Source: a virus
Strand: one strand, 5' to 3'
IMG/VR virus record: IMGVR_UViG_3300046747_000009
Location: 1 to 23,284 of that record
Length of the DNA: 23,284 nt
Shown here: in pieces, positions 4,404 to 12,438 of the stretch
Layout of the letters: the number at the start of each line of letters is the position of its first letter
Position numbering within the stretch: the first letter of the stretch is position 1
The notes under the pieces: model-generated
The model's input: the letters and a program-made list of their open reading frames with translations, nothing else
The model's database searches: none
Told to the model about the DNA's origin: nothing
Translations under genes and position numbers: made by a program

Positions 4404-5818
4404 ACATTCTCGGGTTCGAAATCAAGCGCAAGACCTACGTCGGACCAGTCGATGGCGGCGCGCTCATGCCCACCGGAGACTCTGGTCTGGGTGGGTGGTG
4501 GCCAATTATAAGGGAGCCGTTCTCAGGCGCGTGGCAGCGCAATGCTGAGTGCAGCAAGGAGACGCTGCTCTCTTTTTCAGCCGTCTATTCCTGCGTGACT
4601 CTGATCGCTGCCGACATCGGCAAGTTGTGTCTGGAATTGATGCAGGAGGACGCTGACGGGATCAGCACGGAAACGACTTCACCGTCGTTCTCTCCGGTGC
4701 TGGACAAGCCGAACAGTTACCAGAACCACATCGAATTCAAGGAAGCGTGGATCATCTCCAAGCTTCGCACCGGCAACACCTACGTGCTCAAGCAGCGCGA
4801 CGGCAAGGGCAACGTCGTGCAGATGCATGTCTTGAACCCGATCCGTGTGCGGCCACTGGTCGCGTCGGACGGCAGCGTGTTCTATCAGTTGTCGATGGAC
4901 ATCCTCGCTGAACTTCCTGAGTCGGTGATCGTCCCGGCATCCGAGATCATCCATGACCGGATGAACTGCCTGTTCCATCCCATGGTCGGTGTCGCCCCCC
5001 TATTCGCTTGCCACATGCCAGCGCTGACGGGTCTGGAGATTCAGAAAAACAACGCGAGGTTCTTCGCCAACGGTGCGAAGATCAGCGGCATCATCATGGT
5101 TCCCGGCGCGATCAGTCAGGACAAGGCGAAGGAAGTCTCCGACAAGTTCAACTCCGGTTACACCGGGGCGAACGCTGGCAAGATCGCGGTGCTGGGCGAC
5201 GGCATGAAGTTCCAACCGCTGACCATGACATCCACGGACGCACAGTTGATCGAACTCCTGAAGCTGTCTGCGGAACAGGTCTGTTCCTGCTTCCACGTCC
5301 CGGCTTTCATGGCGGGAGTCGGCGCGATGCCGTCGTATGACAACATCGAAGCGCTCTGGCAGCAGTATTACAACCAGTGCCTGCAGACGCACATCGAGAA
5401 GATGGAACTTTGTCTCGAAGAAGGTCTTGCCGTTCCCGACAAGTATTGCATCGAACTGAATCTCGACGGCTTGCTTCGGATGGACACCAAGACGCAGATC
5501 GCGACTCTTGGCGAGGGCGTGAAGAGTTCCATCTTCGCCCCGAACGAAGCGCGCAAGAAGTTGAACCTAGCTCCGGTTTCTGGCGGCGACTCGCCAATGA
5601 TCCAGCAGCAGAACTTCAGTCTCGAAGCAATCGGCAAGCGCGACTCTATGCCTGATCCGTTCGTCATTGATCGTCCTACGTCAAACCCGACGCCATCGGC
5701 AAGTGGCCCGCCCGCAGTCTCTGACCCATCCCAGACAGGGAAAGAGGTGGACGACTTCCTCGCGAAGGTCATGGGTCATCTGAAAGACAAAATTCCGGAA
5801 CTTTCCGATGGATGCTGA
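4400..5818 (+). CDS. Portal protein (HK97 type)
   Basis: At 472 residues this has the normal length for the ring protein at the unique head vertex, through which DNA passes and to which the connector binds. Family signatures are visible: LLSFSAVYSCVTLIAADIGK (about 55-75), LRTGNTYVLKQRDGKGNV, IIHDRMNCLFHPMVGVAPL, and the wing/stem part NNARFFANGAKISGIIMVPG, then LLKLSAEQVCSCFHVPAFM and PSYDNIEALWQQYY. The C-terminal 60 residues are Pro/Ser-rich and probably flexible. GTG 4400 overlaps the previous stop in GTGA; no strong Shine-Dalgarno sequence is seen, so it is probably coupled. Lying downstream of protease and capsid is unusual compared with HK97. Confidence 0.95.
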   Translation: MNILGFEIKRKTYVGPVDGGALMPTGDSGLGGWWPIIREPFSGAWQRNAECSKETLLSFSAVYSCVTLIAADIGKLCLELMQEDADGISTETTSPSFSPVLDKPNSYQNHIEFKEAWIISKLRTGNTYVLKQRDGKGNVVQMHVLNPIRVRPLVASDGSVFYQLSMDILAELPESVIVPASEIIHDRMNCLFHPMVGVAPLFACHMPALTGLEIQKNNARFFANGAKISGIIMVPGAISQDKAKEVSDKFNSGYTGANAGKIAVLGDGMKFQPLTMTSTDAQLIELLKLSAEQVCSCFHVPAFMAGVGAMPSYDNIEALWQQYYNQCLQTHIEKMELCLEEGLAVPDKYCIELNLDGLLRMDTKTQIATLGEGVKSSIFAPNEARKKLNLAPVSGGDSPMIQQQNFSLEAIGKRDSMPDPFVIDRPTSNPTPSASGPPAVSDPSQTGKEVDDFLAKVMGHLKDKIPELSDGC

Positions 5819-6659
5819 GAAGTTCGCAGAAAGCATTGCTGTGATGATGCGCTCCGAAGTTACGCGGGCGACGGCTCCTCTGCTTAAGCGCGTCTCGGAA
5901 CTTGAGACGGCTGTTGAGCAACTATCCGCAATGCCAGTCATTGACTATGCGGCGTCTGTTGCAGCGGCTGTCGAGGCAATGCCAAAGGCGAAGGACGGAA
6001 CGAGCGTCACGCTCGACGATGTTCAGCCGATGATCCTCGAAGCGATTCAGGCGGCGATGATTCTGGTGCCTGCGCCGAAGGATGGAACGAGCGTCACAGT
6101 GGACGACGTTCTGCCCATGCTGCGCGCTGAGATGCTGAAAGAAATCTCTGCGCTTCCGCGACCAAAGGATGGAGATGACGGCAAGAGCGTTTCGCTTGAC
6201 GATGTGGTTCCTGTCCTTAATTCATGGCAATCCGCGTGGGCGCTGGACTTCGAGCGCCGCGCTCAGGAGTTGTTCCAGAAAGCGGTAGACAAGATGCCAG
6301 CAGCGAAGGATGGCGTTGACGGGTTCGGGTTGGATGACTTCAGGGTCGAGCTTGACGAAGACGGTCGCACGTTGGTGCTCAGTTTTGAGCACGGTGACCG
6401 TCGAGTCGAGAAGCGCCTCACCCTGCCGATTCTGATCGACCGTGGGGTTTACCTACCGGAGAAGGAGTATCAGCGGCACGATGGCGTGACGTACAACGGT
6501 GGCTGGTGGACGGCGCAGAAGGACAACCCGCAAGGAAAGCCGGGCACTTCTGCTGATTGGAGATTGACTGTCAAAAAGGGTCGGGATGGCGCGGACTTCA
6601 GGGGCGTCGAGATCAAGCCACCGTCGCAGGTTGGTCTGAACGGAAGCAAGCGGCCATGA
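5808..6659 (+). CDS. Portal-adjacent protein with KDG repeats and a CBM5/12-like C-terminal module
   Basis: This 283-residue protein begins inside the portal gene (11-bp overlap). Residues 1-40 are helical with heptad character (LLKRVSELETAVEQL). A loose repeat follows: KDGTSVTLDDV at 62, KDGTSVTVDDV at 91, KDGDDGKSVSLDDV at 120 and KDGVDGFGLDDF at 167, with helices between, spaced 29, 29 and 47 residues. A strand-rich part (FRVELDEDGRTLVLSFEHGD) leads to a carbohydrate-binding-like module at about 213-261 (GVYLPEKEYQRHDGVTYNGG, WWTAQ, then SADWRL and KKGRDG), the aromatic pattern of CBM5/12 chitin-binding domains. Similar ends occur in phage tail and head fibres. I infer an elongated fibre-like virion protein; its attachment point is not shown. 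Glycan binding is untested. Confidence 0.68.
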   Translation: MDAEKFAESIAVMMRSEVTRATAPLLKRVSELETAVEQLSAMPVIDYAASVAAAVEAMPKAKDGTSVTLDDVQPMILEAIQAAMILVPAPKDGTSVTVDDVLPMLRAEMLKEISALPRPKDGDDGKSVSLDDVVPVLNSWQSAWALDFERRAQELFQKAVDKMPAAKDGVDGFGLDDFRVELDEDGRTLVLSFEHGDRRVEKRLTLPILIDRGVYLPEKEYQRHDGVTYNGGWWTAQKDNPQGKPGTSADWRLTVKKGRDGADFRGVEIKPPSQVGLNGSKRP

Positions 6660-6994
6660 TGTTCGTCTCGCTCCAGACAGCGAGTGATCACTTGCGTCGT
6701 GGCACGACTGCGGACGATGCTCTGGTGGAACTGTATATCCAAGCAGCGTCTCAGGCTGTCGCGAACTACATTGGAGACAACGCGAATTTCTTCAACAGCG
6801 CTGGCGTTCCGAGTGCTGACTCGAACGGTATTGCTCTGGACATTCCGGAAGACGTGAAGATCGCGACGCTGCTTCTCATCGGCTACTACTACAAGGACCG
6901 CGACAACGACGAGGGGCATGAGTACGAGACGGGCTACCTGCCGCGTCCCGTGACGGCGATGCTCTATCCGTACCGGAACTTTGGGATCGGCTGA
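6656..6994 (+). CDS. Head-tail connector protein (HK97 gp6-like)
   Basis: This 112-residue protein should form the ring attached under the portal. SLQTASDHLRRGTTADDALV opens it, then ELYIQAASQAVANYIGD, and the late helix VKIATLLLIGYYYKDRD leads to LPRPVTAMLYPYRNFGIG. This is the QLRG/gp6 pattern of N-terminal helices and a late 'A.L.L...yyyk.R' helix. I chose ATG 6656, which overlaps the previous stop in ATGA; a longer reading to 6557 would run deep into the previous gene. Its stop overlaps the next start in TGATG. The pair with the next gene matches the usual joining module of HK97-like phages. Confidence 0.88.
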   Translation: MMFVSLQTASDHLRRGTTADDALVELYIQAASQAVANYIGDNANFFNSAGVPSADSNGIALDIPEDVKIATLLLIGYYYKDRDNDEGHEYETGYLPRPVTAMLYPYRNFGIG

Positions 6995-7332
6995 TGGGCG
7001 GGCTTAAGGCTGGCAGACTGCGTGATCTGGTGTCGCTGCAAAGTCAGGCGACGATCCTGAACTCTAACGGCGATCAGGTGAAGGTCTGGACGGAGTTCGC
7101 TCAGGTCTGGGCGGACATCTCGCCGCTGAGCGCACGCGAATTCACCGCGTCTCAGCAGACGACTTCGAGCGCGACTGGGCGGATCACGATTCGCTATCGT
7201 TCGGACGTGAATGCGTCGTGCCGGATCGTCGCTGGCTCGAAAATTTACAACATCCTCGGCGCGCTCCAAGACCCGAACACTGGAGTGGAGTGGTTGACGC
7301 TGCCGGTCGCGCAGGGAACGAATGAGGGTTGA
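6994..7332 (+). CDS. Head-tail adaptor / head closure protein (SPP1 gp16-like)
   Basis: This 112-residue protein begins MGGLKAGRLRDLVSLQSQAT and continues VWTEFAQVWADISPLSAREF, with ITIRYRSDVNASCRIVAGSK and a YNILGALQDPN motif. This is the classic head-tail adaptor pattern: an N-terminal 'G.lr..v..q', central 'W..vWA.i.p', then 'i.iRyr......ri...g..y.I.......'. It closes the filled head and docks the tail. It is coupled to the connector gene by TGATG. Its own stop overlaps the start of the first cassette gene in the same way. In related phages the gp10-like gene would follow here; in this window 4.6 kb of sugar-modification genes come between. Confidence 0.9.
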   Translation: MGGLKAGRLRDLVSLQSQATILNSNGDQVKVWTEFAQVWADISPLSAREFTASQQTTSSATGRITIRYRSDVNASCRIVAGSKIYNILGALQDPNTGVEWLTLPVAQGTNEG

Positions 7333-8063
7333 TGCGGCAAGCATGGCTCTCGCTACGCTTCACAATTCCCGAACGCAGAGCAGTCGTCTGCGAGGGGTTG
7401 CGTAGGATCGGATTCAAGCCGGTCGATGCGCTGACTCTTTCGCCTAGCGATGGCGACGTGCTGGTGACGTGGAACAGGTTTGCAGATTCAGATCGGGCTG
7501 CGCGAATCTTCGAGGCTCGCGGACTTCCGGTTCTGTGCATGGAGAATTGCAGCTTCGGATCGAACTCGTTCGCTGGCAGGAACTGGTATCACATAGCGCG
7601 AGGCTTCCATAATCGCTCAGGGTGTTTCCCGATACGAGACAACAAGCGGTGGGATTCCCTCGGCGTAGAGTTGGCAGACTGGAGAGACGAAGGCGGCGAG
7701 ACGGTTGTCCTGCCGCAGCGCGGTTTCGGTCCTGCTGAAGTCGCGCAACCGAACGGATGGCTGGAGAGGCAGAATGGCAGGATCAGGCCACATCCGGGGA
7801 ATAGGAAAGCGCCTGCGAAGACTCTGGCTGAAGATTTGGAAAAAGCTAGTTGGGTCACGACGTGGGGATCTGCCGCAGCGATTCAGGCGTTGATGTGGGG
7901 TGTAAAGGTTCGCTCCGACTTCAAGAACTGGATCGCGGCGCAGGACAACACGACTGAAGGAAGGCTTGCAATGTTTCGCAGGCTCGCATGGGCGCAGTCA
8001 ACGCTGGCTGAAATCGCAAGTGGCGAGGCGTTCGACAGGTTGCTAAATTTCACGGCAAGGTGA
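7332..8063 (+). CDS. Capsule-synthesis/GT-B-like putative glycosyltransferase
   Basis: This 243-residue protein is first in the cassette. ATG 7332 overlaps the previous stop in TGATG. Visible motifs are GDVLVTWNRF (41-50), VLCMENCSFG (67-76), VVLPQRGFG (125-133), RPHPG (152-156) and TTWGSAAAIQALMWGVKV (176-193). The order 'ExG, Q-R-G-G, R-HPG, S-xA..EAL..G.PV' is what I know from capsule polysaccharide (KpsC/KpsS type) and CDP-glycerol-type transferases of the GT-B fold. The C-terminal RRLAWAQSTLAEIASGEAFD is a feature I associate with a phage-encoded subset. Donor and acceptor cannot be read from the sequence. It is shorter than bacterial KpsS-like enzymes, so it may be a minimal or divergent member. 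No signal peptide is seen. Confidence 0.62.
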   Translation: MRQAWLSLRFTIPERRAVVCEGLRRIGFKPVDALTLSPSDGDVLVTWNRFADSDRAARIFEARGLPVLCMENCSFGSNSFAGRNWYHIARGFHNRSGCFPIRDNKRWDSLGVELADWRDEGGETVVLPQRGFGPAEVAQPNGWLERQNGRIRPHPGNRKAPAKTLAEDLEKASWVTTWGSAAAIQALMWGVKVRSDFKNWIAAQDNTTEGRLAMFRRLAWAQSTLAEIASGEAFDRLLNFTAR

Positions 8064-8605
8064 AACCGATGGCGAAGTACAGTAGTGCGCTGGATGAGTT
8101 CGAGAAGCGGTTCGTCAAGCCGCAACCCGGCAGGACGTTGATCGTCGGCTCCAAGGTTTACAGGGGGAAGCCTGATCGAAGACTCCTATACCCGGATGCT
8201 ATCGGCATCGACATGGAGGAAGGAGATGGCGTCGATCTGGTGATGGACTTGGAGCAGAAGCAGCCGTTGTGGACCTTGTTCGATCACGTCGAGTGCATGT
8301 CCGTTCTGGAGCATTCGCGCAGGCCGTGGATGCTGGCAGAAACGATTGAGACCCTGATGGCTCCCGGCGCGACGATCTTTATATCGGTGCCGTGGATTTG
8401 GCGCTATCACGCTTACCCGAAGGACTACTTCAGGTTCAGCCCTGACGGGATCGAAGCGCTGTTCCCGAACATCGAGTGGGAATACATGATGATCGCGAGC
8501 GACGCGCTGAGAGAGCGCGGCAAGAACGTCCCGGCTGTGACCGTCGAAGGACACGTCCATCTGGCTCGCGCTGAGACGGTCGGGTTCGGGAGGTTGAAGG
8601 CGTGA
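8060..8605 (+). CDS. Class I SAM-dependent methyltransferase-like protein
   Basis: This 181-residue protein keeps the second half of a class I methyltransferase fold. RTLIVGSKVY (25-34) replaces the usual glycine-rich motif I with a weaker form. AIGIDMEEGDGVDLVMDL (47-64) holds the acidic residue expected to contact the ribose of S-adenosylmethionine. HVECMSVLEHSRRPW (76-90) and APGATIFISVPWIW (101-114) are the motif IV/V strands, and HAYPKDYFRFSPDGIEALF (117-135) is a strong signature of Methyltransf_11-like proteins found in sugar and polysaccharide loci. The GTG at 8060 forms GTGA with the previous stop; an in-frame ATG at 8069 is an alternative. The degenerate motif I makes cofactor binding less certain. 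Confidence 0.72.
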   Translation: MKPMAKYSSALDEFEKRFVKPQPGRTLIVGSKVYRGKPDRRLLYPDAIGIDMEEGDGVDLVMDLEQKQPLWTLFDHVECMSVLEHSRRPWMLAETIETLMAPGATIFISVPWIWRYHAYPKDYFRFSPDGIEALFPNIEWEYMMIASDALRERGKNVPAVTVEGHVHLARAETVGFGRLKA

Positions 8606-9447
8606 AAATCCTCGTAACCGGCAAGGGTGGCGAGACGGGAAGCTGGAAGATCAGGGGGGACCAGCTAGGAACAGCGCTGGGGGCTACCGTGAAGCCGCTG
8701 GCGACGTTCGCGGACTTCAAGACGTGCGATCTAGCGGTGGTGGTCAAGCGCACGCCCTCGTGCGTCTTGGACGGGCTGCTGCGGTCTAAGAAGCCGTGGG
8801 TGTTCGATGCGGTGGACTTCTACCCGCAGCCTGAAGCGTCACATTGGACTCGCGAGGAGGCGATTGCGTGGGTTCGGGGGCAGATAAATCAGTTTAGACC
8901 GACTGCCGTGGTCTGGCCTTGCCAACGGATGATGGACGACTGCGGCGGAAACCTGCCGGGAATGGTGCTCAAGCACCACCATCGTCCGGTGATGCGAGTC
9001 AACCCGGTGCGCGAGAGCGTGACCCGGGTGGGCTACGACGGGGACAACCGCTACCTTGCCGATTGGCGGGAAGAGTTGCATCTGGAGTGCCTGAATCGAG
9101 GCTGGCGGTTCATCGTCAACCCGGATCACCTCGCGGACGTGGACATTGCTGTCGCGTTCCGTGGTGGTCGATGGAACGGTTATGTGCAGCAGCACTGGAA
9201 GTCGAACGTCAAATTGGCAAACGCGCACGCGAGCGGAACACCGTTCGTTGGGCAGCGCGAGTGTGGCTATGTCGAGACTTCAACCGGGGCTGAGTACTGG
9301 GTCGCAAACCGCAGTGAACTGAAGACTGCATTCGATTGGCTTGAGCCGTTGGAGTCCCGTGAAGAGATACATAAACGGTTCGTCGCTGAGGCGTACTCGG
9401 TCCATGCGGCAGCGTCAGACCTTCGCAGGTTCCTCAGTGAGTTGTGA
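8602..9447 (+). CDS. GT-B-like putative glycosyltransferase
   Basis: This 281-residue protein starts with MKILVTGKGGETGSWKIRGD and QLGTALGA (to residue 27), a Rossmann-type strand-loop-helix; the 'SWKIRGxQLGxALGA' motif recurs in phage and island glycosyltransferase-like proteins. RPTAVVWPCQRMMDD (99-113) and HHHRPVMRVNPVRE (125-138) mark the domain junction. The C-terminal KLANAHASGTPFVGQRECGY (204-223) corresponds to the donor-sugar-binding 'K..EA.a.G.PVv......E' region of GT4-like enzymes, followed by a helix. The start is the GTG of GTGA at 8602. The donor is unknown. It may act with the adjacent methyltransferases on one glycan. Confidence 0.66.
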   Translation: MKILVTGKGGETGSWKIRGDQLGTALGATVKPLATFADFKTCDLAVVVKRTPSCVLDGLLRSKKPWVFDAVDFYPQPEASHWTREEAIAWVRGQINQFRPTAVVWPCQRMMDDCGGNLPGMVLKHHHRPVMRVNPVRESVTRVGYDGDNRYLADWREELHLECLNRGWRFIVNPDHLADVDIAVAFRGGRWNGYVQQHWKSNVKLANAHASGTPFVGQRECGYVETSTGAEYWVANRSELKTAFDWLEPLESREEIHKRFVAEAYSVHAAASDLRRFLSEL

Positions 9448-10336
9448 TTGCGAGATCATTGTCGATGAGCAGATGTCTTCTCGTGGCAAGAAGATGCTGA
9501 ACTCGATGGCAAGCATCGCGAGCAGATGCGGGATCAACGTGATCTGCTCGACCGACTGGAGAGGCGCAGCGGAGTGGCTGATGGTCTACGGCATCGGTCA
9601 TCAGGGACGCAGACCGTGGATCGAGAAGCACATGGAAGCCGGTGGTCACATGATCGGCTGGGACTTGGGCTACTGGCTCAGGCACGCGCCAATCGGGTTC
9701 CACATGCGGTTGACGATTGACGCGGATCACCCTTGGCGGATGATCGAGCCGGAGCATCCGCAGCGACTGGCGAACACGAGCATCAAGCTGCGCGAGGACG
9801 CTGATCCGAACGGTCCAATCGTTCTGTGCGGACTCGGATCCAAGCAGCGGACGTGGAAACGCTTGCAGGTTTGCGAGTGGGAGGAACGCACGCTCAATGA
9901 ATTGCGAACGAAGTTCCCCGGTCGGGAGATCGTCTATCGTCCGAAGGTTCCGGAAGAGGGACTGCACGGGCTGGAGGTGATGAAAGGGTCGATTGAAGAG
10001 GTGCTGAAGGGCGCGTCTCTGGTCGTCTGCCAGCACTCGAACGTCGCGGTAGATGCGTGCATCGCTGGAGTGCCGGTGATGTGCGAGGACGGGATTGCCT
10101 ATGCGCTGTATAGGCATGGACAGAACCCGACGCGAGAGCAGAGATTGGATTTCCTGCGGTCGCTGGCGCACTGGCAATACACGCCCGCTGAGTCGCATCT
10201 GGCATGGGCATTCATCAAGAGGAAGTTATGCGAGTCAACTTCGGTTGTGGCAAGGCAATCCGAGACGGATGGTTCAACATCGACGCGGAGCGTCATCCCG
10301 GCGCAACCAGAGACCCTGAACTTATCTTCCAGTTGA
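9437..10336 (+). CDS. KpsS-like putative glycosyltransferase with an abnormal C-terminal extension
   Basis: This protein has 299 residues from GTG 9437 (11-bp overlap with the previous gene; an AGG about 7 nt upstream is a weak ribosome site). EIIVDEQMSSRGKKMLNSMA opens the fold. LGYWLRHAPIGF and MRLTIDADHP follow, then PIVLCGLGSKQRTWK. VYRPKVPEEG and SLVVCQHSNVAVDACIAGVP (about 193-213) with VMCEDG match the C-terminal half of capsule/Kdo-type transferases. A natural end would be WAFIKRKL at residue 264. Instead the frame runs 35 more residues (CESTSVVARQ to LNLSSS) through the start of the next gene. A C in place of A at 10231 would explain the lost TGA. Function is inferred; the tail looks like non-native sequence. 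Confidence 0.62.
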   Translation: MSCDCEIIVDEQMSSRGKKMLNSMASIASRCGINVICSTDWRGAAEWLMVYGIGHQGRRPWIEKHMEAGGHMIGWDLGYWLRHAPIGFHMRLTIDADHPWRMIEPEHPQRLANTSIKLREDADPNGPIVLCGLGSKQRTWKRLQVCEWEERTLNELRTKFPGREIVYRPKVPEEGLHGLEVMKGSIEEVLKGASLVVCQHSNVAVDACIAGVPVMCEDGIAYALYRHGQNPTREQRLDFLRSLAHWQYTPAESHLAWAFIKRKLCESTSVVARQSETDGSTSTRSVIPAQPETLNLSSS

Positions 10337-10743
10337 GGTTCAGTGGCGGGAAGTTGATCGAACAGATTCCGCTGGAAGACGGATGCGCTGAAGAGATTGA
10401 GGCCATCCATGTGATCGAGCACTTCCAGCGCTACAACGTGGACGCGGTTCTGGAAGAGTTCAGACGGCTGTTGGCGAAGAAAGGGCGATTGGTTCTTGAG
10501 CTACCGAACCTGCGCGCTGCGGCATGGAATCTGTTGAACGGTGGTGATAAGCGTTCGTCTCTGGATGCGATCTACGGATCGGACAAGGACGACGGTACGT
10601 TCATGTCGCACCTGTACGGCTACACCCCGGAGTCGCTGGCGAAGCTTCTCGGGGAACACGAGTTCAAGCACATTCACGTCATGGAGCCGCAGACGCACGG
10701 CAAGCGGCTACATCGGGACATGAGGTTCGAGGCGCGGAAATGA
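10228..10743 (+). CDS. Class I SAM-dependent methyltransferase
   Basis: This 171-residue enzyme shows clear motifs: MRVNFGCGKAIRDGWFNIDA (1-20) is motif I plus the acidic residue after strand 2; IEAIHVIEHFQRY (57-69) is motif IV; LLAKKGRLVLELPNL (81-95) is motif V; and SHLYGYTPESLAKLLGEHEF (127-146) is typical of methyltransferases in sugar loci. I chose ATG 10228 because AGAGGAAG (10218-10225) stands just upstream and motif I starts immediately; an in-frame ATG at 10204 is possible but would put extra residues before the first strand. It overlaps the previous gene by 109 bp, the only long overlap in the cassette, and joins the next gene in ATGA. Probable target: a hydroxyl or carboxyl of a sugar. 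Confidence 0.82.
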   Translation: MRVNFGCGKAIRDGWFNIDAERHPGATRDPELIFQLRFSGGKLIEQIPLEDGCAEEIEAIHVIEHFQRYNVDAVLEEFRRLLAKKGRLVLELPNLRAAAWNLLNGGDKRSSLDAIYGSDKDDGTFMSHLYGYTPESLAKLLGEHEFKHIHVMEPQTHGKRLHRDMRFEARK

Positions 10744-11447
10744 GAATCTTCATCGGCTATGACAATCGGGAGAACGAAGCGTTCGAGGTTGCGCGTAGCA
10801 CGGCGCAGTCGTTCGGTTGTCAGGTCACGCCGATCTATGAAGACCAGTTGCGCGCTCAGGGATTACTGACGCGACCAGTGGACCGGCGCGGAGGGATGTT
10901 CGATCTGGCAAGCTCGGCTCCGCAATCGACGCAGTTCGCGATCAGCCGGTTCTTCGTGCCGCTGCTGGCGCACTCGGGCTGGTGCCTGTTTACGGACTGC
11001 GACGTGGTGTTCCTGCGCGATCCGAAGGAACTGCTGAAGCGCGCCGATGATCGGTTCGCTGTGATGGTGGTCAAGCATCCGTCGCTCGATAGTGTCGATG
11101 ATAAGATGGATTCACAGGTACAGACGCTATACAAAAGGAAAAACTGGAGCAGCGTGATGCTGATCAACTGCGATCACCCCGGCAATCGTCGTCTGAACCT
11201 TTCGACGCTGAATCAGTGGCCCGGTCGCGATCTCCATGCGTTCTCATGGCTCGCTGATTCCGAGATTGGGGAACTGAGTCAGGACTACAATTGGCTGGTC
11301 AACGTGCGTCTGCCGCCAGCGAATCCTGCCATCGCGCACTTCACGCTCGGTGGCCCGTGGATTCCCGGCTGGGAAGGCAAGCCGTATGACGAACTTTGGA
11401 TCAAGGCGCAGCGCGAGCATTCTCAGAGAGTCGTCGAGGTCGTGTGA
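10740..11447 (+). CDS. GT8-like glycosyltransferase (GT-A fold, DxD)
   Basis: This 235-residue protein begins MRIFIGYDNRENEAFEVARS, the usual opening of GT-A transferases related to GT8. The metal- and nucleotide-sugar-binding DxD is D86-C87-D88 in WCLFTDCDVVFLRDP. KRKNWSSVMLINCDHP (132-147) and LSQDYNWLVN (179-188) are further family signatures, and IAHFTLGGPW (198-207) holds the metal-binding His and the GGPW motif. All catalytic elements look intact. It starts at the ATG in ATGA with the previous gene and ends in TGATG with the next. It is expected to be cytoplasmic, with no membrane segment. Its donor (glucose, galactose or another UDP-sugar) cannot be told. Confidence 0.82.
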   Translation: MRIFIGYDNRENEAFEVARSTAQSFGCQVTPIYEDQLRAQGLLTRPVDRRGGMFDLASSAPQSTQFAISRFFVPLLAHSGWCLFTDCDVVFLRDPKELLKRADDRFAVMVVKHPSLDSVDDKMDSQVQTLYKRKNWSSVMLINCDHPGNRRLNLSTLNQWPGRDLHAFSWLADSEIGELSQDYNWLVNVRLPPANPAIAHFTLGGPWIPGWEGKPYDELWIKAQREHSQRVVEVV

Positions 11448-11950
11448 TGCGGGTGGCGATACTGGCAAGCGGCGAGAGCATGTCTCAGGAGGTCGCGGAC
11501 TCGGTTCGCGGCGAGTACACGGTTCTGGTCGTGAACAACGTCTACCAGTTGGCTCCGTGGGCTGATGGGCTTGTGGCGAACGACCACGACTGGTGGCGCG
11601 CACACAAGGACGCTATCAAGTTCGATGGGCGCAAGTTCAGCAGCAACAACATCGTTGGCGTCGAGCGCGTGTTCTCGGACTACGTGACGAGTCAGTCGAG
11701 TTCCGGGGTTCTCTCGCTGGAGGTGGCGCGCAGCCGCTACTTCGCGAAGGAGATTCACCTGTACGGATTCGACAACAAAGGCTCGCACTACTTCGGGCAG
11801 CATGTCGCTCCGTTGAACAACACGACGGCTGGGCGGTTCGAGATATTCCAGCACCAGTTTAAGGCAATCGGTGAGTTCCTTTCCAAGTGCGGAGTCAAGG
11901 TGATCAACAAGACACCGGGTTCCGCATTGCGCGCATTCCCTTTCGAGTAG
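11447..11950 (+). CDS. MptE/sialyltransferase-like (DUF115-related) protein
   Basis: This 167-residue protein closes the cassette. MRVAILASGESMSQE (1-15) matches the 'G.GPSL' nucleotide-binding loop of DUF115/MptE-like proteins and of GT42 sialyltransferases such as CstII, with GES in place of GPS. VLVVNNVYQLAPWADGLVAN (26-45) followed by DHDWWRAH (46-53) and IHLYGFDN (103-110) fit that fold. KVINKTPGSALRAFPF (151-166) is an end I associate with phage members often left as hypothetical. ATG 11447 overlaps the GT8-like stop in TGATG. Its stop is not coupled to the next gene; five bases separate them. Whether it transfers a sugar or a phosphate-containing group is unknown. Confidence 0.58.
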   Translation: MRVAILASGESMSQEVADSVRGEYTVLVVNNVYQLAPWADGLVANDHDWWRAHKDAIKFDGRKFSSNNIVGVERVFSDYVTSQSSSGVLSLEVARSRYFAKEIHLYGFDNKGSHYFGQHVAPLNNTTAGRFEIFQHQFKAIGEFLSKCGVKVINKTPGSALRAFPFE

Positions 11951-11955
11951 ACAAC

Positions 11956-12438
11956 ATGCCTGTTGATGTACAAGTAACCGGGCTGAAAGAACTTCAGCAG
12001 CGGTTGCAGCAAATATCCGACACGGTGGGTGGCAAGCAAGCCGCGAAGCCGGTCGTGCATGCACTGCGTCAGGCGGGCAAGCTGATTCAGACGAGCGCGA
12101 TCAATCTGGTACACAAGAAGTCGGGAACGCTTGCTGCGAACATCATCGTTACGCACCCGAAGACTCGGGTTGCTGGCGTTGAGAAGATCACCGTGACGAT
12201 CCGTGCGAAGGCGAAGAAGTATGCGGACAACGCGGGTAACCGGCGCAAGGGTCGAGCCGGTGGGAAATACAAGGACTATGGCCCGCTATTCTATGCGCGG
12301 TTCCTCGAGTTCGGGACATCGCATCAGCCACCCTACCCATTCTTGCGTCCGGCATTTGAGTTCAACAAATCCGATTTGCCTGAAGTTTTCGCTGATAGCC
12401 TGAGCAAATCTCTCGACAAGTTGGAATCTCCAAAGTGA
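11956..12438 (+). CDS. HK97 gp10-like head-tail/tail completion protein
   Basis: This 160-residue protein contains VTGLKELQQRLQQISDTVGG (8-27), a helix with HALRQAGKLIQTSA (about 39-52), and the family hallmark FYARFLEFGTSHQPPYPFLR followed by PAFE (about 112-135), as in HK97 gp10 proteins. I chose ATG 11956, five bases after the cassette's last stop; a longer in-frame reading to 11887 would overlap that gene with no ribosome site. The nearest purine run is GAG at 11945-11947. This gene resumes the conserved head-tail order broken by the cassette. Its stop overlaps the next start in GTGA. Confidence 0.9.
   Translation: MPVDVQVTGLKELQQRLQQISDTVGGKQAAKPVVHALRQAGKLIQTSAINLVHKKSGTLAANIIVTHPKTRVAGVEKITVTIRAKAKKYADNAGNRRKGRAGGKYKDYGPLFYARFLEFGTSHQPPYPFLRPAFEFNKSDLPEVFADSLSKSLDKLESPK

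Follow-up and report, generated by a model that had tools for sequence, protein, structure and literature searches.

A seven-gene cassette (g1 to g7) lies among the head and tail genes of the phage record IMGVR_UViG_3300046747_000009, an IMG/VR virus record from an environmental metagenome that was analysed over its full 23,284 bases (hereafter the window). We assign a probability of roughly 0.6 to the reading that the cassette is a phage-owned cytoplasmic pathway, co-expressed with the late structural genes, by which a virion protein receives a short O-methylated glycan while the particle is assembled. Four observations point to this reading: the parts list of the cassette, the absence of membrane segments, the near-universal presence of g7, and the fact that virion genes constantly accompany the cassette. 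Virion glycosylation as such is known; the seven-gene cassette appears to be undescribed, and no description of it was found in the open-access literature.

The cassette (7332–11950) separates the head closure gene Hc1 from the HK97 gp10-like gene (gp10), as proposed in a preliminary description made from the sequence alone; all seven open reading frames (ORFs) were confirmed in place on the same strand, and the two boundary genes matched Phage_HCP and HK97-gp10_like. No membrane segment was found in g1–g7, and the cassette includes no flippase, polymerase, or lipid-linked initiating enzyme. Its GC content is without sign of foreign origin.

Conservation of the cassette

IMG/VR was scanned with g1, g6, and g3, the g7 alignment being too divergent for use as a query, and the more than 200 loci obtained were mapped by profile searches; having been retrieved through cassette genes, these loci describe the cassette and not its frequency, and a few contigs may be near-duplicates. 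A g7 gene was present in 70 of the 74 loci found with g1, where 672 of 672 recognised genes lay on one strand; for all 72 loci found with g3 the count was 828 of 829, with g2 present in 25 of the 72. Among the loci found with g3, 26 are long; every one of these contains g1, g4, and g7, and 25 contain g5 and g6. Sixty-four loci hold g1, g3, g4, and g6 in near-identical gene order. The seven-gene arrangement is not due to chance, because the same genes recur in nearly the same order in so many loci with virtually complete co-orientation.

Of these 64 loci, 28 have the cassette fully bracketed by Hc1 and gp10; in 15 it lies between Ad1 and an upstream portal, protease, or repeat protein gene (at the site between repeat protein and Ad1, the repeat protein gene is its immediate upstream neighbour), and in three it follows the tail tube or tail terminator gene (site between tail tube and tape measure). 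Contig ends truncate the remaining loci. The embedding in a head-tail joining operon that was claimed at the outset holds for the window, but the cassette is not confined to one place: three operon sites are used, and in jumbo phages the core lies downstream of the tail genes, so that the common factor is the virion module and not one locus. Where g7 was seen in full cassettes it precedes g1 in 50 of 57 and follows g6, as in the window, in seven. Split cassettes were observed in L049/L171 (Variovorax sp. JS1663), L300, and L324, with g7 near the repeat protein gene and Ad1 and g1–g6 after the tail tube or terminator gene. An expanded version (L004:872-8693) lies between head genes and Ad1, with three g4 paralogues, FkbM and another methyltransferase, a flavin adenine dinucleotide (FAD) oxidoreductase, and a short-chain dehydrogenase. 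According to co-divergence matrices the cassette does not travel as one clonal block; g1 and g7 track the head side (repeat protein, Hc1) and g6 tracks nothing (pairwise divergence of g6 vs. g1, rho 0.06). A capsid-based scan found one distant relative alone.

Sister phages were sampled by portal similarity, with cassette genes not serving as queries; the portal alignment itself came from cassette-bearing loci. The region was spanned in 45 sister loci, 28 without and 17 with an insert (insert L207 being the same contig as L017), and 15 of the 17 inserts contain a g7 relative. In insert-free sisters Hc1 and gp10 mostly touch or lie within about 10 bases, which bears out the earlier statement that the two are normally neighbours. 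The inserts encode mainly methyltransferases, g7 relatives, and GT2, GT8, GT9, or LicD enzymes (GT, glycosyltransferase family). Presence and absence among sisters fits an optional decoration, and a near-constant g7 with variable downstream transferases and methyltransferases fits a primer with variable extenders.

Predicted functions of the cassette proteins

Folds, motifs, and profiles uphold the enzyme classes of the preliminary description, the matches of g6 to GT8 and of g7 to CstII being weak: GT-B or capsule-type transferases (g1, g3, g4), S-adenosylmethionine (SAM) methyltransferases (g2, g5), a GT8-like protein with DxD (g6), and an MptE/CstII-like protein (g7). Pfam and PHROG searches with g1 alone or g3 alone gave nothing useful; family-wide scans and structure prediction were needed.

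The AlphaFold2 model of g1, built from the locus alignment (predicted local distance difference test score, pLDDT, 94.6), matched only transferases of 3-deoxy-D-manno-octulosonic acid (Kdo) among its top 15 Foldseek matches in the PDB (KrkA, KpsC, WbbB; 3.8e-6 to 2.3e-4; probability 1.0; template modelling score about 0.5). The predicted structure has the GT-B fold of the retaining beta-Kdo transferases KpsC (GT107), WbbB (GT99), and KrkA (GT140), and 6 of 56 family members match Capsule_synth. Catalysis by retaining Kdo transferases depends on an HP motif, a Glu that acts as base, and the nucleophile of a QXXXD motif (PMC12887879, PMC10148158). In the g1 family E71, H154-P155, and S180 are invariant (56/56) and R152 occurs in 54 of 56, so that the (K/R)xHP motif for the phosphate of cytidine monophosphate (CMP) is present, as is a conserved Ser. 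In an alignment whose score is insignificant, the invariant E71 falls opposite the KpsC base, the Glu of the LEDGF stretch; their correspondence is a lead only.

The homology of g4 to g1 runs through the L004 paralogues (1.1e-17) and Caulobacter phage Col128 (1.3e-6), which matches g1 too. In g4, D77-x-G-Y replaces E-N and R-P replaces HP; some relatives carry several g4 copies. The window's g4 extends about 30 codons beyond the end of its homologues, within g5 in another frame, which suggests that the original g4 stop was lost.

For g3 the AlphaFold2 model from the locus alignment (pLDDT 96.4) gave Foldseek matches to GtfC (2.7e-8), SdgB (3.7e-8), SenB, and BshA, the four spanning 1e-8 to 1e-6, all with probability 1.0; the predicted structure is a GT-B fold of the GT4 type, and 8 of 26 family members match Glyco_trans_1_2. 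SdgB (protein O-glycosylating) and GtfC (adhesin pathway), among the best fold matches, are both adhesin glycosylation enzymes. The g6 protein belongs to phrog_28018, with D86-C-D88 (DxD) and H200-x3-G-x-P-W; DxD and HxxxGxP are invariant in seven sequences; the features looked for in a GT8-like GT-A glycosyltransferase are a DxD and, towards the C-terminus, a motif resembling HxxGxxKPW. Its profile matches WbbM, glycogenin, and GT8 weakly at the DxD (range 0.017–0.9; WbbM 0.017, GT8 0.3 or worse).

The g7 protein matches a PHROG family (phrog_4603) annotated as alpha-2,3-sialyltransferase, and its relatives match PF01973 (MptE-like), to which 9 of 60 insert proteins gave hits. PMC11339370 assigns that Pfam family to the CstII-like central domain of the flagellin Maf transferases, which attach N-acetylneuraminic acid (Neu5Ac) or Kdo directly to Ser/Thr of flagellin. 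The g7 protein shares the GT42 motif regions with Maf and CstII, and differs from Maf in that it consists of a single domain, about 168 residues long, and has neither the N- nor the C-terminal domain of Maf; this likeness, seen at the sequence level, is weak. In L015 (2116-4032), L016, L023, and L081 the g7 gene encodes a protein of 631–639 residues, in L015 with a PKD (Ig-like) domain beside the transferase domain, possibly a targeting or acceptor domain.

Compared with its near relative L002, the window is identical from gp10 through the tail tube gene and shows up to 35 differences per 150 bases inside g4. The 95 synonymous vs. 23 non-synonymous changed codons in g3–g7 indicate that these genes are under purifying selection. 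The divergence is sharp, local, and concentrated in g3–g4 (window 9090–10290), where alleles have probably been exchanged within the cassette.

Related gene sets and known systems

Mycobacteriophages (Che8, Corndog, Myrna) glycosylate their capsid and tail tube with transferases of their own, according to the account of Freeman et al. (2023) given in PMC12363180. Phage-encoded glycosyltransferases are common to those systems and, as predicted from fold and motif, to the cassette, for which virion decoration is the proposed outcome. The mycobacteriophage systems consist of measured glycoproteins and named single transferases; the cassette, in contrast, has five GT-like and two methyltransferase genes of other families, is known from its genes, and lies within the head-tail genes of phages linked to Proteobacteria.

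In Pseudomonas phage D3 a g7 relative (orf7) follows the capsid gene, and the slot used in the window, that between Hc1 and HK97-gp10, contains three genes, orf12 and the methyltransferase gene orf13 among them; this three-gene set (orf7, orf12, orf13) lacks g1, g3, g4, and g6, and no functional determination of its members was found in the literature. In Tetraselmis viridis virus S20 a series of genes of this type occupies a similar place, separating capsid from Hc1, and one of them encodes a GT-D enzyme. The Caulobacter jumbo phages CcrColossus, CcrSC, CcrBL9, and CcrPW hold g7-g1-g4-g6 in this order with a methyltransferase gene, as in the core of the cassette. They are of an unrelated lineage, with a GT9 gene and without g3; the core, mostly annotated as hypothetical, lies between the tail genes and the endolysin gene, as was located in CcrColossus and CcrSC.

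A g1 scan of 84,980 bacterial and archaeal genomes, which works with short patterns that distant host homologues could escape, returned six loci, all neighbouring other cassette genes; in the five of these genomes that were searched whole, g1-like genes were confined to that contig. The loci of Variovorax JS1663 and of a Rhodospirillaceae metagenome-assembled genome have recognisable phage structural genes, and the Variovorax contig (L171) is probably a prophage; among the remaining loci, tape-measure-like genes occur in two and a replication gene of phage type in one. Identical genes restricted to unrelated host loci, the pattern that the preliminary description had named as contrary to its proposal, were thus not what the scan returned; the g1 family was found next to cassette genes only.

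Features of the window

The operon is a standard morphogenesis operon and runs on the + strand throughout. It opens with the two terminase subunits (small and large) and continues through the protease, HK97-type capsid, portal, repeat protein, Ad1, and Hc1 genes to the seven-gene insert, after which come HK97-gp10, the tail terminator and tail tube, the chaperone, the tape measure, and more tail genes. The record is probably a genome fragment, since the gene content seen is limited to packaging and virion genes. The description of the seven genes as overlapped needs trimming: several ORF overlaps are artefacts of choosing the most upstream start. With the likely starts, g1 begins at the Hc1 stop, gp10 begins just past the g7 stop, and most real overlaps measure 4 bases or fewer, apart from g3/g4 (11 bases) and g4/g5 (about 110 bases).

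Table 1 Coordinates of the cassette genes, their boundaries, and the repeat protein gene. Starts of g1, g4, g5, g7, and gp10 are likely start codons.
Feature	Position in window	Strand	Evidence
Head closure Hc1, upstream boundary	6994..7332	+	Phage_HCP 1.5e-24; PHROG head closure 9.9e-24
g1, GT-B fold (predicted), KpsC/WbbB/KrkA (CMP-Kdo transferase) structural group; Capsule_synth/DUF6716-like family	7332..8063	+	AlphaFold2 and Foldseek
g2, class I SAM methyltransferase, variable cassette member	8060..8605	+	Methyltransf_23 7.3e-4, under curated cut-off
g3, GT4-type GT-B glycosyltransferase (predicted)	8602..9447	+	AlphaFold2 and Foldseek
g4, diverged g1 paralogue (GT-B)	9437..10336	+	Homology via paralogues of relatives
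g5, class I SAM methyltransferase	10228..10743	+	Methyltransf_23 1.6e-6, Methyltransf_11 2.1e-4, both over cut-off
g6, GT-A/GT8-like transferase with invariant DxD	10740..11447	+	phrog_28018 1.5e-45
g7, GT42/CstII-like, Maf_flag10/MptE-like transferase; anchor gene of related inserts	11447..11950	+	phrog_4603 4.8e-22
HK97-gp10-like neck/tail completion protein, downstream boundary	11956..12438	+	HK97-gp10_like 1.2e-6; phrog_5 1e-20
Repeat protein (PKDGxSVxxDDV repeats), candidate acceptor or partner	5808..6659	+	phrog_1289 6.6e-37, phrog_5073 4.4e-4; PHROG portal C-terminal/tail-fibre-like

The repeat protein varies from about 250 to more than 700 residues in relatives with or without the cassette; in the window its C-terminal segment (VTYNGGWWTAQKDNPQGKPGTSADWRL) resembles a small carbohydrate-binding module by eye. 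Because cassette-free sisters carry the repeat protein too, it is only a candidate for acceptor or partner.

Discussion

Gram-negative hosts contain Kdo as CMP-Kdo. In the proposed pathway g7 (Maf/GT42-like) would take an ulosonic-type sugar from a CMP-donor of the host and attach it as primer to Ser/Thr in a virion protein, g1 and g4 would add related residues, g3 (GT4) and g6 (GT8-like) would lengthen the chain from nucleotide-sugars, and g2 and g5 would cap it by methylation; the decoration may serve shielding, adsorption, or particle stability. We infer the donors, the order of steps, the acceptor, the methylation of sugar and not of protein, and the role. The short methylated sugar suggested earlier fits the parts list; the glycerol-phosphate-like structure suggested with it seems less likely, the structure search favouring a CMP-ulosonate-transferase-like fold for g1.

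Several observations weigh against this pathway. The single, short, 243-residue module of g1 differs from KpsC, WbbB, and KrkA in lacking the QXXXD nucleophile: Q129 is present in 45 of 56 family members, but the Asp position is Gly133 in all 56. Because of this invariant replacement g1 was kept out of the retaining Kdo transferases, an assignment that was considered and rejected; its mechanism or donor may be a different one. The g4 alignment has neither the QXXXD nor the HP motif, so that the donors, and even the activity, of g1 and g4 are uncertain. The link of g7 to CstII is a weak profile match (0.011), in which the GpS, nSG, and GfD motif regions are aligned. Ser/Thr content and length of the major capsid protein, the major tail protein, gp10, and the portal were the same in insert-bearing and insert-free sisters; the former have a longer Ad1 and a slightly lower Ser/Thr content in the repeat protein, neither being interpretable given shared ancestry. 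The insert slots, moreover, are not reserved for glycosylation, because other phages place Mom-like or endonuclease genes there: a minority of the inserts in the portal sample (L179-L252) carry a Mom-like DNA modification protein, HNH endonucleases, or a Rha regulator in the same slots.

The main rival, which we consider unlikely, is that the cassette alters host lipopolysaccharide or capsule during infection or lysogeny, with superinfection exclusion or serotype conversion as the result. KpsC, WbbB, and KrkA, the structural relatives of g1 and g4, do act on lipopolysaccharide or capsule, and a relative occurs in the probable Variovorax prophage; however, the cassette occupies three different sites, all within the structural operon, its core stands beside tail and lysis genes in the Caulobacter jumbo phages, and it has no membrane protein or any of the lipid-linked initiating enzymes, flippases, or polymerases. 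That the methyltransferases and transferases act separately, at a site that is a hotspot for unrelated accessory genes, is improbable. The sister inserts are varied and extend to endonucleases and regulators, and the poor correlation of g6 and g1 divergence points to exchange of members, but almost every long locus keeps g1-g3-g4-g5-g6-g7 as a group, with a single order at different sites.

There is little to favour a small soluble metabolite or signal, made by MptE-like chemistry of g7 as a methylated saccharide and not as a protein glycan. The Pfam match of g7 relatives and the acceptor search, which gave no acceptor, would agree with it; the phage g7 family, however, has the GT42 motif regions and nearly always accompanies other transferases, and constant embedding among virion genes would be hard to explain. 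Hardly any weight falls on modification of phage DNA bases by the transferases (glycosylated hypermodified DNA) against restriction, even though glucosylation of phage DNA is known and one insert at an equivalent slot encodes the Mom-like protein: the folds match ulosonate and GT4 sugar enzymes, not DNA glucosyltransferases; the genes are located among structural genes; and no DNA-methyltransferase or base-modification family is present among the cassette genes of the window, although the remainder of the genome, outside this record, may encode base-modifying enzymes.

With glycosylation of a virion protein as the preferred reading, a broader claim may be put forward tentatively: a widespread, phage-exclusive pathway might use host CMP-sugars to make an O-methylated oligosaccharide containing ulosonic acid and place it on the virions of tailed phages. 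The pathway would parallel flagellin glycosylation, with g7 as a primer of its own and with a new family of KpsC-like transferases without the canonical nucleophile, and would be common to unrelated phage lineages as a unit.

Virion glycosylation has so far been documented in a few mycobacteriophages, and the present model is directly testable with phages already in culture. If true, it would account for the "sialyltransferase" annotations in phage head operons and would provide new transferase families; with a unit that Caulobacter jumbo phages have in common with siphovirus-type phages from metagenomes, and a g7-type anchor also in D3, a sugar coating would be a general option for tailed phages.

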